Below, piece after piece: positions 42,183 to 61,811 of a stretch of 64,000 bases of DNA; position 1 is the stretch's first letter, and each line of letters starts with the position of its first letter. This stretch comes from Nocardioides panacis (GTDB taxonomy: Bacteria; Actinomycetota; Actinomycetes; Propionibacteriales; Nocardioidaceae). The position numbers were made by a program, and so were the translations under genes. The stretch lies in contig NZ_CP077062.1 in NCBI RefSeq assembly GCF_019039255.1, positions 2,666,001-2,730,000 on the forward strand. Reading direction: 5' to 3'. Under the pieces are notes generated by a model. It did not search any database. It worked only from the letters and a program-made list of their open reading frames with translations, and had not been told where the DNA came from.

Positions 42183-42208
42183 GTTAGCGGGCCGTTTCGC
42201 GCGACGGA

Positions 42209-42868
42209 TCAGACCGTCTGCGGCGCCGTGCGCCTGCGTGCCACCGCGTAGACCGGCTCGGGCAGTCCGGGTACGTCGAGCAGCCCGGGCAGCAACGACG
42301 GGTCGGTCGTCAGCGCGCGGAACATCATCGACACCGTGAACCCGTGCTCGGGACGGTGCTCGACCACGATCTCGTCACCGGCCTGCAGGACACCCTCCTC
42401 GAGGACGCGCAGGTAGGGCCCCGGGCGACCTTCCGCGGTGAACCGCTTGGCCCACTCGGCGTTGTCGAGGAGGTGCCGGCCGAGCCAGTTCTTGAACACC
42501 GAGCACGGGATCCGCACCTCGACCGGCGAGAGCAGGGCGGTGCCGATCCGCCAGTGCTCGCCGAGGACGGCCTCGTTGACGTCGAGCCCGCCGGTGGTGA
42601 GGTTCTCCCCGAACATCGCCGGCCCCAGAGGCCCACCGATCCGCTGCGCCCAGAGGTCCAGGTCCTCCTGGGCGAAGGCGTAGACCGCCTGGAACACCCC
42701 ACCGTGGTGCTTGGTGTCGGCGACCTGGTCACCTTCGAGCCCCAGCTCGTGGACACGGACCGGTCCGTCCACGCTGTGCTTGCGGAAGGACGTACGGCGC
42801 TTGCTGCCCGCCCAGGTCGCGGTCACGGGCCTGCCGACGTTGACGGAGAGGACACGGGGACTGCTCAT
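42209..42868 (-). CDS. MOSC-domain protein (YiiM-like)
   Basis: 219 aa. GLEGDQVADTKHHGGVFQAVYAF (about 44-66), GPLGPAMFGENLTTGGLDVNEAVLGEHWRIG (about 80-110) and the MOSC Cys in VRIPCSVFKNWL (near 125) are diagnostic. The YiiM C-terminal 3-alpha region is present. MOSC proteins bind the molybdenum cofactor, and YiiM relatives reduce N-hydroxylated base analogues such as 6-N-hydroxylaminopurine with a redox partner. No molybdenum-cofactor gene is adjacent. Confidence 0.9.
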   Translation of the reverse strand: MSSPRVLSVNVGRPVTATWAGSKRRTSFRKHSVDGPVRVHELGLEGDQVADTKHHGGVFQAVYAFAQEDLDLWAQRIGGPLGPAMFGENLTTGGLDVNEAVLGEHWRIGTALLSPVEVRIPCSVFKNWLGRHLLDNAEWAKRFTAEGRPGPYLRVLEEGVLQAGDEIVVEHRPEHGFTVSMMFRALTTDPSLLPGLLDVPGLPEPVYAVARRRTAPQTV

Positions 42869-42935
42869 CGCCCCAGTCTCGCGTGTCCTCGGCCCGCGCG
42901 CAGCGGGTTTCCGCCGGGCGGGTCGAGGACGCAGG

Positions 42936-42964
42936 ACACCCGCCCCGGAAGCCGGGGCGGGTGT
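42936..42964 (-). terminator. Strong hairpin downstream of the repeat-protein gene
   Basis: ACACCCGCCCCGG and CCGGGGCGGGTGT form a perfect 13-bp stem with a 3-nt loop, 30 bp past the stop of the repeat-protein gene. No U-tract follows, which is common for terminators in high-GC actinobacteria. Confidence 0.65.
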
Positions 42965-42993
42965 AGCGCTGCTGGTCTTCGCTCGCCGGACGC

Positions 42994-44748
42994 TCAGCCG
43001 ACCAGGAGAGGCGGCAGGACCGGAGCGGTGTTGTTCCCACCGTTCCCGGCACCACCGTTCCCGGCACCACCGTTCCCGGCACCACCGTTCCCGGCACCAC
43101 CGTTGCCTGCGCCACCGGAGGTCCCAGTGGTGCTAGTGGTCCCGGCGCCGCCGTTGCTTCCACCGTTCCCGGAGCCGCCGTTCCCGCCGTTGCCGGAGCC
43201 GCCACCGTTCCCGGTGGTCCCGGAGGTGCTGGAAGTCCCGCCGGTGCCGTGGGTCCCGGCACCGCCGTTGGTCCCACCGTTCCCGGAGCCACCGCTGTTC
43301 CCGGAGGTCCCGGAGCTGCCGGACGTGCTGGAGGTCCCGCTACTGCTGCCGCCGTTCCCCGAGCCGCCGTTGCTCCCACCGTTCCCGGAGCCGCCGCTGT
43401 TCCCGGAGGTCCCGGAGGTCCCGGACGTGCTGGAGGTCCCGCTACTGCTGCCGCCGTTCCCCGAGCCGCCGTTGCTCCCACCGTTCCCAGAGCCGCCGCT
43501 GTTCCCGGAGGTCCCGGAGCTGCCGGACGTGCTGGAGGTCCCGCTGCTGCTGCCGCCGTTCCCCGAGCCGCCGTTGGTCCCGCCGTTCCCAGAGCCGCCG
43601 CTGTTCCCGGAGGTCCCGGAGCTGCCGGACGTGCTGGAGGTCCCGCTACTGCTGCCGCCGTTCCCGGAGCCGCCGTTGCTCCCACCGTTCCCGGAGCCGC
43701 CGTTGCTCCCACCGTTCCCGGAGCCGCCGCTGTTCCCGGAGGTCCCGGAGGTCCCGGAGGTGCTGGAGGTCCCGCTGCTGCTGCCGCCGTTCCCGGAGCC
43801 ACCGTTGCTCCCGCCGTTCCCGGACGTCCCAGTGCTGCCCGAGGTTCCGGAAGTCCCGGTGGGGCCGCTGTGGGTCCCGGTGTTCCCAGTGCTGCCGTCG
43901 TTGCCGTTGTTGTTGGTGCCGTGGTCCTGGTTGTTGCTGGTGCTGTGGTCCTGGTTGTTGCTGTGGTCCTGGTTGTTGTTGGTGCTGTGGTCCTGGTTGT
44001 TGTTGGTGCTGTGGTCCTGGTTGTTGCTGTGGTCGTGGCTGCCGTGGTCCTGGTTGTCGCTGTGGTCGTGGCTGCCGTGGTTGTTGTTGTTGCCGTGCTC
44101 GTGGTCACCGTGGTCGTTGTTGTTTCCGTGGTCCCCGTGGTGGTCACCGTGGTCGTGGTTGTCCCCGTGGTGGTCACCGTGGTGGTCACCGTGGTCGTGG
44201 TTGTCCCCGTGGTGGTCACCGTGGTCGTGGTTGTCCCCGTGGTGGTCACCGTGGTGGTCACCGTGGTGGTCACCGTGGTCGTGGTTGTCCCCGTGGTCCC
44301 CGTGGTCGCGCTCGTTGATCACCTTGACGTGCAGGCTCGGGTCGTTGTTGTCGTCGAACCGGACCCTCAGCTTGTTGCCGTCGGTGCTGGTGTCCTCGTC
44401 GTCACCCCACACCTTGAAGCGCACGTCGAACCCGTTGTCGTCCGTCTCCTCGAGCCAGAACTTGTTGTTGTCGAACTTGAGGTCGACGTTCTCGCAGTCC
44501 CCGTCCTTGAGGCTGAAGTGCTCCCTGTCCTTGTCGGTCCAGGCCTTGAAGTCGAAGCTGTCGTCCTTGTGACTCTTGCGTTTCTGCCACCGGTCATGGT
44601 TGTCCTTGACCTCCTTGCAGACCGTCACGTCGAGGACGTCGGACCTGTGGTGCCTGGCGCTCGCCACCGCGGCCGAGCTGAGACTCGTCGAGACCAGCGC
44701 GGCACTCATCAACGTGGCCCCCGCGAAGCGAAGCGTTCGGTGCTGCAT
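42994..44748 (-). CDS. Secreted low-complexity protein with His/Asp, Asn/Gln and Ser/Gly/Thr repeat zones
   Basis: 584 aa from ATG 44748 with a GGGGAGGAA ribosome site. A signal peptide (about 1-31) is followed by a charged, Asp-rich domain with two Cys (about 36-147). Residues 148-219 are DHGDHHGDN-type repeats (very high His/Asp, a likely metal-binding surface). Residues 220-282 are NNQDHST repeats. Residues 309-487 are five 34-residue SGNGGSNGG... units. Residues about 546-571 are GAGNG repeats, and the tail is APVLPPLLVG with no sortase motif. It is not recognised as a named family. A cell-surface or matrix role is inferred from export and composition only. Confidence 0.75.
   Translation of the reverse strand: MQHRTLRFAGATLMSAALVSTSLSSAAVASARHHRSDVLDVTVCKEVKDNHDRWQKRKSHKDDSFDFKAWTDKDREHFSLKDGDCENVDLKFDNNKFWLEETDDNGFDVRFKVWGDDEDTSTDGNKLRVRFDDNNDPSLHVKVINERDHGDHGDNHDHGDHHGDHHGDHHGDNHDHGDHHGDNHDHGDHHGDHHGDNHDHGDHHGDHGNNNDHGDHEHGNNNNHGSHDHSDNQDHGSHDHSNNQDHSTNNNQDHSTNNNQDHSNNQDHSTSNNQDHGTNNNGNDGSTGNTGTHSGPTGTSGTSGSTGTSGNGGSNGGSGNGGSSSGTSSTSGTSGTSGNSGGSGNGGSNGGSGNGGSNGGSGNGGSSSGTSSTSGSSGTSGNSGGSGNGGTNGGSGNGGSSSGTSSTSGSSGTSGNSGGSGNGGSNGGSGNGGSSSGTSSTSGTSGTSGNSGGSGNGGSNGGSGNGGSSSGTSSTSGSSGTSGNSGGSGNGGTNGGAGTHGTGGTSSTSGTTGNGGGSGNGGNGGSGNGGSNGGAGTTSTTGTSGGAGNGGAGNGGAGNGGAGNGGAGNGGNNTAPVLPPLLVG
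43288..43824 (-). repeat. In-gene VNTR: five units of 102 bp (one with a 27-bp insertion)
   Basis: Residues 309-342, 343-385, 386-419, 420-453 and 454-487 of the repeat protein are near-identical. The second unit has an extra nine residues (one more SGNGGSNGG). Small S/T and GTS/GSS alternations mark individual copies. All changes keep frame. Such arrays vary in copy number by slippage or unequal crossing-over. Confidence 0.9.
44092..44307 (-). repeat. His/Asp-coding short repeats (GTGGTCACC-type 9-12 bp units)
   Basis: Within the repeat-protein gene, the opposite strand shows GTGGTGGTCACCGTGGTC-like units in long runs, encoding D-H-H-G and D-N-H-D-H-G. Across this zone about one residue in three is His. 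It is imperfect but in frame throughout. Confidence 0.8.
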
Positions 44749-45039
44749 GGGTTCCTCCCCTGTGTGATTGATCAACTGTGATGTCCACCCCCGCTCACTC
44801 AACTCCGGTATGCGTACCTGTGCCATGACGCGATGTGCGGGCACGCCCACCCCTCGGAGAGGCGGCGTGGACGCGGGTGCGCGACCCCCCGTTCGAACCT
44901 GACCCGGACTCAGGAAAACGCCAGGTGGGCCATAGGTTTCAAGGCATTGCACGACATAGTCGATGCATCCGGCGCCGCTCTCCGGGCCCTCATCCGCGCA
45001 GGTTCCCAATAAAGGTTGCCATCCCGGAAAGTGATCTTT

Positions 45040-45504
45040 ATGGTTTCCGTCATGGAAAGTTTCTCTGATCCTCGCCAGGACCTCGCGGACGCGGAGCGGG
45101 CGGCGGCCGCGCCGTACGTCGACTACCCCACGACACCGGCGTGGTACCCGCCGGCCGTCGGCGTCTGGGCGGCCGCACTGGTGGCGGTACTCGGCTTCGA
45201 CGGGCACGCCCTGCGGTCCGCGGGGCTGGCGGTGCTGATCGTGCTCGAGGTGCTGTTCATCGCGTGGTACCGCCGCAAGCGCGGGGTGATGCCGAACCTG
45301 CGAGGAGCGCCGCGCGAGATCGCCCGCGAGATGCGGTGGTACGTCGTGGGGGTCGTCGTGGTGGTGGCCGTCGTCGGCGCCGCCTTCGCGGTCAGCAGCC
45401 TGCTGGCCGCGGTGGTCGCCCTGGTGCTCGTCACCGCGGGGGTCGCGGCCTACGAGCGCCGTTACGAGGTCGCGGCGGCCCGCACCCGCGAACGGCTCTC
45501 ATGA
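45040..45504 (+). CDS. Four-helix membrane protein of unknown function
   Basis: 154 aa. A hydrophilic N-terminus of about 32 residues precedes four hydrophobic segments (about 38-54, 60-77, 100-117, 120-138) joined by a basic loop with WYRRKRGVMP; the C-terminus is charged. ATG 45040 has GGAAAG eight bases upstream; the ATG at 45052 has none. It ends in an ATGA overlap with a winged-helix regulator, a recurrent actinobacterial pair in which the regulator probably controls the membrane protein. The product is not recognised. Confidence 0.7.
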   Translation: MVSVMESFSDPRQDLADAERAAAAPYVDYPTTPAWYPPAVGVWAAALVAVLGFDGHALRSAGLAVLIVLEVLFIAWYRRKRGVMPNLRGAPREIAREMRWYVVGVVVVVAVVGAAFAVSSLLAAVVALVLVTAGVAAYERRYEVAAARTRERLS

Positions 45505-45806
45505 GCCTGGATCGCCTCGACCCGGTCATTCACGCCCCCAAGCGGCTCGCCACGATGGCCGTGCTGGCGCACGCGACGTCGAGCGACTTCTCCTTCCTGC
45601 GCGAGCACCTCGGCGTCAGCGACTCCGACCTGTCCAAGCAGATGGCGGCGCTGGAGAAGGCGGGGTACGTCGCGGTGACCAAGAGCAGCCGCGGTCGGGG
45701 CGGCGTGACGACCTACCGGATCACCCGGGCCGGGGCAGCGGCCTACCGGCGGCACGTGCAGGCGCTGCGCGACATCGTGGGCGCGCCGACCGACGTGCAG
45801 CCCTGA
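45501..45806 (+). CDS. Winged-helix transcriptional regulator
   Basis: 101-aa single-domain regulator: VIHAPKRLATMAVLAHATSSDFSFLREHLGVSDSDLSKQMAALEKAGYVAVTK (about 9-61) then a wing with RGRGGVTTYRITRAGAAAYRRHV. This is the HTH_27/MarR-like group often annotated as transcriptional regulator. It is co-translated with the membrane protein upstream. No ligand site is apparent. Confidence 0.85.
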   Translation: MSLDRLDPVIHAPKRLATMAVLAHATSSDFSFLREHLGVSDSDLSKQMAALEKAGYVAVTKSSRGRGGVTTYRITRAGAAAYRRHVQALRDIVGAPTDVQP

Positions 45807-45809
45807 CCC

Positions 45810-46742
45810 TCAGTCCTGCACGGCCTTGGCGATGGTGACGGCGGCGGTCAGGGCGGCCCGGTCGTCGGCGTCCAGGGCCCGCCGGGCGGTCACCGCGTCC
45901 TCGATCACCCAGAGCGCGTTGTGCATCTCCCGGACCACGACCCACGCACGCGCCCGCTGCTCGTCGAGCCCGGCCGCGTCGACCAGCGTGAAGAACCGCC
46001 GCCGCACGGCGTCGCGCACGTGGCCGGAGGCGACCACGTCGTCCCACCGGTTCCACAGCATCGGCGCCGGCTCGTAGTGCGGGTCGCCGGCCATCGGCTT
46101 CGGGTCGATCGCCAACCAGGGCTCGCGATCGGCAGCCAGCACGTTCTCGTAGTGCAGGTCGCCGTGGATCGTCCGGGCGTCGGTGGCGGGGTCGCCGACG
46201 AGGTCACGGCCGAGCGACACGGCCTGCTCGACGAGCCGGCGCGGGAGCGGGGCGTCGACCGGCAGGTCCGCCAGCCGCGTCGTCCACCGGTCGACGTACG
46301 ACGAGAGCCGGCGCAGCTGCGGCAGGGCCGGGACGTGCAGCCGCTGGTACAGACCGCCGACGATCTCGCAGGCCTCGACGTCCCACAGCGGCGTCAGGTC
46401 CTCCTCGGCGTGCAGCCGCTCGAGCAGCAGCGCCCACCGCCGGGGGTCGGCGCGCAGCAGCTGGACCGCGCCGTCGCCGTGCCAGGCCCGGAGCCCGAGG
46501 TGCTCGTGCTCGGCCTCGTCGTGCGGGTAGGTCACCTTGAGCACGGCGGGCCGGCCGCAGGCGGTGCGCACCGGCACGACGAGCGCGCACTGGCCGTGCC
46601 AGGGCGGCCCGTCGTGCGTCAGCTGCCACTCCGAGACGAGCTCGTCCACCAGCCTCGGCAGTCCCGCGAGGTACGTCGCGAAGCGCTCGCCCCGGCCGGC
46701 GTACGCCGTGAAGGTCGGCGGGATCGCGAACGGCAGGGGCAC
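45810..46742 (-). CDS. Aminoglycoside/hydroxyurea phosphotransferase-like kinase (APH(6)-like)
   Basis: 310 aa from GTG 46742. The kinase fold has VLKVTYPHDEAEHE (ATP-binding Lys), ALLLERL (hinge), the Brenner motif TIHGDLHYENVLAA (HGDLHxxN, about 193-206) and AIDPKPMAGDPHYEPAPMLWNR (metal-binding Asp region). This matches the streptomycin 6-kinase family; APH(6) relatives in non-resistant actinomycetes often have no proven antibiotic substrate. Its promoter must lie in the 80-bp gap before the riboswitch on the other strand. Confidence 0.85.
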   Translation of the reverse strand: MPLPFAIPPTFTAYAGRGERFATYLAGLPRLVDELVSEWQLTHDGPPWHGQCALVVPVRTACGRPAVLKVTYPHDEAEHEHLGLRAWHGDGAVQLLRADPRRWALLLERLHAEEDLTPLWDVEACEIVGGLYQRLHVPALPQLRRLSSYVDRWTTRLADLPVDAPLPRRLVEQAVSLGRDLVGDPATDARTIHGDLHYENVLAADREPWLAIDPKPMAGDPHYEPAPMLWNRWDDVVASGHVRDAVRRRFFTLVDAAGLDEQRARAWVVVREMHNALWVIEDAVTARRALDADDRAALTAAVTIAKAVQD

Positions 46743-46821
46743 CGGGCCATCCTGCCCGGTGGGCGACGACGCTCGTGGACGGGTGCTTCCCGGCGACCAG
46801 CGAGTGTGACAAGGTTCCCCC

Positions 46822-46980
46822 CAAGCTGCAGTTACGGGAAGTCGGTGTGAATCCGACGTGGTCCTCGCCACTGTGACCGGGGAGTCCCCTCCCACTTTTG
46901 CCACTGGTGTCCGTCTCGACGGGTGCTGGGAAGGCGGGAACGGGACGACGATCCGGAAGCCAGGAGACCGGCTGCAGCGT
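46822..46980 (+). promoter_or_regulatory. Cobalamin riboswitch upstream of cbtB-cbtA
   Basis: Conserved blocks in order: GGGAAGTCGGTGTGAATCCGACG, GCCACTGTGACC, GCCACTGG, GGGAAGGCGGG and GGAAGCCAGGAGACCGGC (B12 box). GCTGCAG (46825-46831) can pair with CTGCAGC (46972-46978) to close P1. It lies 36 bp before cbtB. Binding of B12 would be expected to lower expression of the cobalt-import and cob genes behind it. Confidence 0.93.
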
Positions 46981-47015
46981 GATCTGTCCACGAGGTATGG
47001 AAGAAGGGGTCTCCC

Positions 47016-56311: not shown

Positions 56312-56353
56312 TGATCCTCCACAGGCTCCCGCTGGGATGGTTCCGTGGCACAG

Positions 56354-56523
56354 GACCAAGGCCGGTCTTCGGACTTCCTGATCAACACCGGTCCGATCGC
56401 CTTCCCGGACTCACGTCCAGTGGCTGCGCTCTCGCGCCGATCGGCGGCTCCCAGGTCACCGCAGCGGGCCTGTGTCGGACTCTCACCGACTTCCCGATTA
56501 TCCCCGTGAGGGGCACCTCGGTC
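56354..56523 (-). promoter_or_regulatory. Cobalamin riboswitch upstream of the chelatase-cobO-cobBC-cobD operon
   Basis: On the minus strand: GACCGAGG (P1 5' arm), CGGGAAGTCGGTGAGAGTCCGACAC, GCTGCGGTGACC, GCAGCCACTGGACG, CCGGGAAGGCG and AGGAAGTCCGAAGACCGGC, then CCTTGGTC (P1 3' arm, one G-U). These are the standard cobalamin-aptamer blocks. It ends about 40 bp before the GTG start of the chelatase gene. Confidence 0.93.
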
Positions 56524-56620
56524 TTTGACTGCCGGGGTGATCGTAGCGCGCGCCGGCCGGTTGTCGAGGGGCCGTCTCGCCGGCGCGCCCGGCCCGGCGG
56601 ATGCCCTACTGTTGCCGCCC

Positions 56621-60741: not shown

Positions 60742-61641
60742 CGGTCCTCCAGGTCCGGCAGCAGCAGGCTGCGCCAGGGGGTCACCACGACCTCGGTGCC
60801 GGCCCGGTCGAGCACCTCGGCGGCGGCCCCGGGCGACAGCACCCCGTCGGGTACGTCGACGTGCTCGACGACCCGGCCGTCGTGCTGCGGGTGCCGACCG
60901 TACGACGGACGCCCGCTCGTCACGTGGCTGCGCGCGTCGCGGGTGCCGTCGAGCAGGGGGGGTGTCCAGCTCGTCGACGTGCCAGGCCGCCGTCGCCCCC
61001 GTCCCGCGGGCCAGCAGGAAGCGTTTCGTCAACGTGTGAAGGGCTCTGGCGGTCTCGTCGATCGTCAGCACGTCGCCCCACTGGTCGGACCCGGCCCGCA
61101 GCTGCACGGTCCGGCCGTCCAGGGCGACGGCCGCCAGGTCCGACGTACGCCCGACCAGGTCGCCGCGGCCGTCGTCGAGGGTGAACAGGAACCGGCCGGC
61201 CAGGTCGGCGCACTCCGGGTCGGCCAGCAGCAGCCGGTCGAGCTCCTGCGCGACGGGCCGCAGGTCGGCCCGCCCCCCGGCTCGTCCGGACAGCGGCGAG
61301 ACCATCACGTTGCGGACCAGCTCGTGCGAGGTCGAGGGCAGCAGACCGGCCGCCCGGACCGCGGCCACGAAGCCGTCCGGCAGCTCTCCCTCGGTGTGCG
61401 GGACCGCCCGGACCTGCACGTTCGCCCGCTTGGTCAGGTGCAGGTCGCCGTCCCCGTAGGTCGCGGACAGCGCCACCAGAGCGGCCAGCGCCTCGGTGCC
61501 CAGGACCCCGCCGACGAGCCGGATCCGCACCAGGGCCCCGTCGTCCGCGAGCCATGGACGGGTGACCCCGGGGCACCGGTCCGGGCGCAGCCGGGGGGTC
61601 GTCTGGTCGAGCACGGGCACAGGATGGCACACGGTCGGCAC
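60738..61641 (-). pseudogene. cobG: Precorrin-3B synthase CobG-like, frame-shifted and without C-terminal cluster domain
   Basis: The N-terminal part is clearly CobG/sulfite-reductase-like: DRCPGVTRPWLADDGALVRIRLVGG, LHLTKRANVQVRAV, STSHELVRNVMVSPLSGRAGG. At the G7 run 60956-60962 the frame changes. Removing one base gives DELDTPLLDGTRDARSHVTSG, which continues to VVVTPWRSLLLPDLEDR and stops at the cobH overlap. The restored protein is about 300 aa and lacks the C-x5-C...C-x3-C [4Fe-4S] ligands usually found in the CobG C-terminus. The start is uncertain: GTGs at 61641, 61620 and 61614 are in frame. Confidence 0.78.
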
Positions 61642-61671
61642 CCGGTTCGCAGGGTCTATGCTGACGGCTTC

Positions 61672-61771
61672 GTCGTCGTGACCTCAGGAACCCGGTGTGA
61701 CTCCGGGGCGGTTCCGCCACTGTGATGCGAGCTCGACCAGAGCCCGCCAGCCAGACACTGACCTCGATGAC
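61672..61771 (+). promoter_or_regulatory. Cobalamin riboswitch upstream of cobN (compact form)
   Basis: Blocks seen: GTCGTCG (P1), CTCAGGAACCCGGTGTGACTCCGGGGCGGTTCC, CGCCACTGTGATGCGAG, then the 3' core GCCAGCCAGACACTGACC and closing CGATGAC. The peripheral region is shorter than in the other two copies. It lies 40 bp before the cobN start, with GAAGGAGC as ribosome site between them. Confidence 0.9.
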
Positions 61772-61811
61772 TCCTCACGAGCTGGAGCGAGAACTCCACG
61801 AAGGAGCATCA

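Follow-up and report, generated by a model that had tools for sequence, protein, structure and literature searches.

What a 584-amino-acid protein composed largely of His/Asp-rich and Ser/Gly-rich repeats might do, and whether it is encoded by a genuine gene at all, is the question raised by positions 42994..44748 of the window, the stretch of 64,000 nucleotides of Nocardioides panacis DNA analysed here.

A gene on the minus strand

Our analyses support the 584-amino-acid reading frame as a real gene, because it combines a ribosome-binding site, a characteristic G+C distribution over codon positions and a hairpin after its stop. The frame runs on the minus strand, which the initial annotation did not name, from an ATG at 44748 to a stop at 42994-42996. 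The ribosome-binding site (GGGGAGGA, 44753..44760, minus strand, read by eye and unscored) lies 4 bases 5' of the ATG, and a strong, G+C-rich, terminator-like hairpin without a T run is located 3' of the stop (42936..42964, minus strand), although it is absent from the list of a scan of 42200-45600 that also sought promoters. No sigma-70-like promoter was found on the minus strand in that interval. Over the first 147 codons, G+C content at codon positions 1, 2 and 3 is 0.56, 0.35 and 0.94, and the third position is likewise the richest in four compared neighbouring genes. The initial annotation had envisaged that only the opposite strand might be conserved in homologues; this was checked on one homologue, that of genome G246, where identity was 30/77 in the sense and 26/77 in the antisense direction, a control that hardly discriminates between strands.

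A probably exported protein made of successive zones

The succession of zones described in the initial annotation holds. A signal-peptide-like start (residues 1-31; 44656..44748, minus strand as for all the following zones), with cleavage after ASA as judged by eye, precedes a domain common to the G246 relative (residues 32-147; 44308..44655) that contains C44 and C85, the only cysteines of the protein, and that is indeed acidic (30 Asp/Glu versus 22 Lys/Arg). It is followed by a His/Asp zone (residues 148-230; 44059..44307) and an Asn/Gln-Asp-His-Ser (NQDHS) zone (residues 231-283; 43900..44058), then by a Ser/Gly/Thr/Asn zone (residues 284-535; 43144..43899) and by GAGNG repeats with the C-terminal end TAPVLPPLLVG (residues 536-584; 42997..43143). 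Tandem repeats were also detected independently in the gene, in arrays with periods of 9-129 bp.

The His/Asp density is above chance, since the best 79-residue count of His plus Asp reaches 50 in this protein and 24 in the runner-up among the 330 stop-free stretches of at least 100 amino acids in the window; residues 148-226 alone hold 29 His and 20 Asp. The HxxHxH motif occurs three times in P0002 and three times in P0003, within His-rich sequence in which it is expected to turn up by chance. Within the Ser/Gly/Thr/Asn zone, the five 34-residue units (43252..43788) are not evenly spaced: they begin at residues 321, 364, 398, 432 and 466, with spacings of 43, 34, 34 and 34, so that an extra 9-residue piece follows the first unit. 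Of the 12 columns that vary between units, 8 are third codon positions. A collagen-like periodicity of the Ser/Gly zone was rejected, as Gly counts by phase (29/79, 36/78 and 37/78) reveal no overall phase.

Secretion, as proposed earlier, agrees with the signal-peptide-like starts recognised by eye in both copies, and so does the lack of an anchor with what we found. The protein contains no sortase motif LP.T[GAS] and no second hydrophobic or transmembrane segment (top 17-residue hydropathy after residue 35, 0.36), and thus is missing both the LPxTG-like motif and the C-terminal membrane segment of the sortase-anchored class. The suggestion that the Ser/Gly zone serves as an adhesive stalk, by contrast, is unsupported, because the G246 relative does not have this zone and the protein has no anchor.

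Comparison with known families and structures

The database search of the N-terminal domain proposed in the initial annotation yielded no significant family or structure match and a single relative, G246, in keeping with the view that the protein belongs to no recognised family. Neither Pfam nor NCBIfam gave a domain match over cut-off. The best Pfam match of the domain, DUF7920 (PF25536; E 0.014, 14.9 bits for a cut-off of 27), covers 45 residues of a 315-position model, and membership was rejected as the score is below cut-off and the G246 relative does not match DUF7920. Sequence searches of the PDB returned three matches, none significant (E 0.42-1.1), and a profile search of the PDB returned none. 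Two single-sequence structure models, mostly strands, reached mean pLDDT values of 43.9 and 43.6, too weak to use, and the best Foldseek match obtained with the first of these low-confidence models (pLDDT ~44) had an E value of 0.59.

The 'LkdG..' pattern and a mostly-strand, low-confidence model suggested a resemblance to the DUF5979 (PF19407) and SpaA (PF17802) domains of bacterial surface proteins, a lead that we followed but found unsupported. Neither family is matched in the own genome; among the 58 genomes searched, DUF5979 matches occur in 7 and SpaA matches in 25, 22 of them over cut-off. Profile scores were no better than those of column shuffles (n=60 for each), being 8.7 against DUF5979 (shuffles: median 9.3, maximum 16.6; 14 of 15 loci used, L075 left out) and 10.9 against SpaA (median 9.2, maximum 17.1; 9 of 15 loci used, L092, L093, L094 and L096-L098 left out), in a test that is itself weak, with a query of two rows from which a stretch was removed and a DUF5979-SpaA comparison that scores only 22.5 (probability 17). 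With regard to the beta-sandwich of the DUF5979/SpaA fold, the models show mostly strands at a mean pLDDT of ~44.

One distant relative

When the 118-amino-acid domain was searched in 98 genomes, the own one included, at E<=0.01, our gene was the sole match. No match was found in the six other genomes of the genus that were searched, two of which are less than 90% complete, although the genomic slot described below could be read in all six. When 341 genomes of the family were searched with a limit of E<=1, 19 gave a match, namely the own genome (G000) and 18 others, all inspected, of which one, G246 (E 7.6e-6), harbours a relative; the other 17 matches were judged by eye to be unrelated or antisense frames. 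A search that included the His/Asp stretch, and that scored no more than 12 candidates per genome, so that many were left unscored, probably on account of this stretch, matched at least 12 of the 341 genomes (G000, G246 and at least 10 others, none of those others with a relative), and its repetition without that stretch matched three, the third (G320) at the place of an earlier weak match and no relative. A profile search of 296 genomes of the class matched four (G000 and three others, none with a relative), so that profile searches of the 341 family and 296 class genomes added no further relatives. The exact His/Asp repeat DNA pattern was found in 1 of the 341 genomes, the own one (exact matches only).

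Scans of genome contigs by short peptide patterns or tblastn gave 62 and 72 pattern stretches, of which none was confirmed, and the G246 gene was likewise not returned by the 72-stretch scan; a viral scan gave 71, none confirmed, and phage and plasmid collections gave no relative. These contig, viral, phage and plasmid scans relied on short patterns or tblastn and may miss near records, so they do not prove absence. The six matches in the own genome correspond to the gene, a second stretch inside it and four stretches of a gene for a long collagen-like G-X-Y repeat protein near tuf and fusA (genome positions 3248630-3251716; L060 4631-7717), which is similar in composition only. The literature search contained no report of this protein among the matches listed.

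The G246 relative is a 172-amino-acid protein with its own signal-peptide-like start (by eye), two Cys, 23 His and 25 Asp, and 37-38% identity; BLASTP aligned the second part of the domain (30/81 identical), and the first Cys was aligned by MAFFT only. It presents a His/Asp-rich loop after the first Cys and ends in VEEDHHHHDH directly after the domain, and Ser/Gly zones are missing. As the relative has both the domain and the His/Asp tail, and not the Ser/Gly zones, domain plus tail would appear to be the shared unit and the Ser/Gly part lineage-specific, though this reading is thin because it compares two sequences only.

A variable genomic slot and its surroundings

The gene occupies, together with a divergent gene pair, a slot of 2941 bp (42869..45809) between an APH-like and a MOSC gene. 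The order APH-like, MOSC, acyl-CoA ligase is kept in all six other genomes of the genus, as is hemW as far as sequence reaches. In five of them the tblastn matches of APH and MOSC lie 123-156 bp apart; in the sixth, G003, they are separated by 2.3 kb with a sulfatase-domain gene (L046 7427-9403), which has several hydrophobic segments and appears LTA-synthase-like by eye. The slot is variable, and our gene was either gained here or lost elsewhere. The APH gene itself (45810-46715; APH_6_hur, aminoglycoside/hydroxyurea kinase-like) adjoins MOSC, or nearly so, in these six genomes. One gene of the divergent pair (45031-45803) encodes a membrane-type protein that matches no Pfam family, the other an HTH_34 regulator, and the two overlap by ATGA. 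G003 carries a similar pair at another locus; as we saw no His/Asp gene next to that one, a partner role for the pair was rejected. We recognised in the slot no gene for a secretion partner, for an anchor or for assembly.

Past the HTH_34 and APH genes, about 2 kb from our gene, begins a region with a cobalamin riboswitch (46812-46990), cbtB, cbtA and cobalamin genes; cbtBA, behind this riboswitch, is 2.3 kb from the gene. Three cobalamin riboswitches over the Rfam gathering score were found in 40000-64000 (46812-46990, 56343-56535 and 61635-61780), standing among cbtB, cbtA and cobalamin biosynthesis genes. In G246, the genes for a FUR-family protein, an ABC-3 permease, an ABC ATPase and ZnuA form a znu-type block at 4.5-7.6 kb from the relative, and recO, uppS and other genes intervene. 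In the same genome, the DnaG frame (L100 12404-14821) shows a zinc-ribbon match split around an intein-like insert (by eye).

The nearness of both copies to metal-transport genes was noticed post hoc and may be due to chance, because unrelated genes intervene in both genomes and because the riboswitch and cbtBA also adjoin APH in G004, which lacks our gene. Neither riboswitch nor cbtBA was seen in the flanks covered in G001, G002, G003 and G005, and no zinc transporter is found among the Pfam-scanned neighbours (42.2-46.7 kb and 47.0-61.6 kb of the window). Control of either His/Asp gene by Zur or zinc starvation is not supported by their upstream sequences, because the best Zur-box-like match to the Zur consensus is 8/15 upstream of both genes, equal to background, versus 13/15 and 12/15 in the znuA start region of G246, the positive control. 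The G246 scan took in 30 coding bases, where its top match (9/15) lies, the upstream best being 8.

Possible functions

The reading that we favour, tentatively and at slightly less than even odds, is that of an exported protein that binds divalent metal ions in large number and acts as a metal buffer or scavenger of the extracellular or envelope zone. Side chains of His and Asp are established ligands of divalent transition metals, and a disordered tail of such composition would bind many ions weakly, which is why buffering is preferred. The small two-Cys domain would bear a disordered His/Asp tail able to take up zinc, cobalt, nickel or copper at many weak sites, and the bound ions would thereby be buffered or scavenged outside the cell or in the envelope zone; the Ser/Gly/Thr and GAGNG zones would be a lineage-specific hydrophilic extension, dispensable for the basic function. 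We infer a C44-C85 disulphide, the disorder of the tail, metal binding and the buffering role. That the His/Asp zone binds metal is plausible, and more so in view of the G246 relative, where His/Asp-rich stretches surround the same two-Cys domain. We counted for the metal buffer the 29 His and 20 Asp in 79 residues, the relative's His/Asp tail and the metal-transport genes near both copies, and against it the cbtBA of G004 without the gene, the lack of a Zur-box-like site and the six genomes of the genus without a match. In our judgement, it ranks ahead of a structural or adhesive chain, a weakly constrained orphan and a zincophore, in this order.

The main rival is indeed a structural or adhesive matrix protein, in which flexible Ser/Gly and His/Asp chains would build up a hydrated layer outside the cell, perhaps crosslinked by metal, and metal would be the glue, not the cargo. 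About 300 of the 584 residues (284-584) are Gly/Ser/Thr/Asn-rich repeats without an enzyme domain, and the lack of a transmembrane segment or sortase motif also fits, but a relative devoid of Ser/Gly zones and a slot devoid of recognisable secretion, anchoring or assembly genes make this role rather unlikely. Somewhat more doubtful still is the idea that the gene is an orphan, either young or evolving fast, that DNA slippage lengthened its tail and that it has no strong function outside the N-terminal domain. Its rarity (one relative in 341 genomes, the exact repeat DNA in one of them), the 9-129 bp repeat periods and a slot nearly empty in five of six genomes of the genus all suit such an origin. 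Against it, the distant relative also combines two Cys with a His/Asp tail, and third codon positions account for most of the columns that vary between units (8/12).

Better-known His-rich or zinc-binding exported proteins offer limited parallels. PMC3842936 describes streptococcal histidine triad (Pht) proteins, such as PhtD, as having short three-beta-strand units with HxxHxH. Ours is similarly exported and His-rich, with potential metal sites, and contains HxxHxH three times in tracts where chance could produce it, but it has no histidine-triad family match (none listed up to E<=10 by either Pfam or NCBIfam), its tail is of low complexity and it shares no operon with a zinc-binding component of a zinc ABC transporter, its neighbours being the MOSC gene and the divergent membrane/HTH_34 pair. 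The Candida zincophore Pra1 is presented in PMC3386192 as secreted and reported to bind zinc outside the cell, its gene being syntenic with that of a zinc transporter; Pra1 is eukaryotic, and no homology is claimed. A zincophore-like scavenger that delivers its zinc to a surface transporter of its own, the role put forward for Pht/AdcAII or Pra1/Zrt1, is very improbable here: the export signal, the His richness and the relative's position 4.5-7.6 kb from the FUR-family/znu-type block would fit, but neither gene has a Zur-box-like site upstream, in contrast to the znuA control, and the scanned neighbours include no zinc transporter.

Whatever its function, the protein reveals a rare, unnamed exported domain, and both copies found bear His/Asp-rich chains; the 172-amino-acid G246 form is a ready minimal construct. 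If metal is bound, as in the buffering reading that we prefer, the protein would be an extracellular metal buffer without a named family among the databases searched, and, as a block polymer of His/Asp and Ser/Gly made by nature, it might be useful for metal-responsive materials. A more speculative idea, to which we give little credence, is that a new family of exported two-Cys domains with a disordered His/Asp tail has here enlarged this tail into a several-hundred-residue chain, which metal ions would gel or crosslink into extracellular material. The Nereis jaw protein Nvjp-1 is a His/Gly-rich chain with metal-dependent properties; it is an animal protein, alike in composition only. If the gelling reading were true, Nocardioides panacis would possess a bacterial counterpart of the metal-hardened His/Gly-rich proteins of animals.
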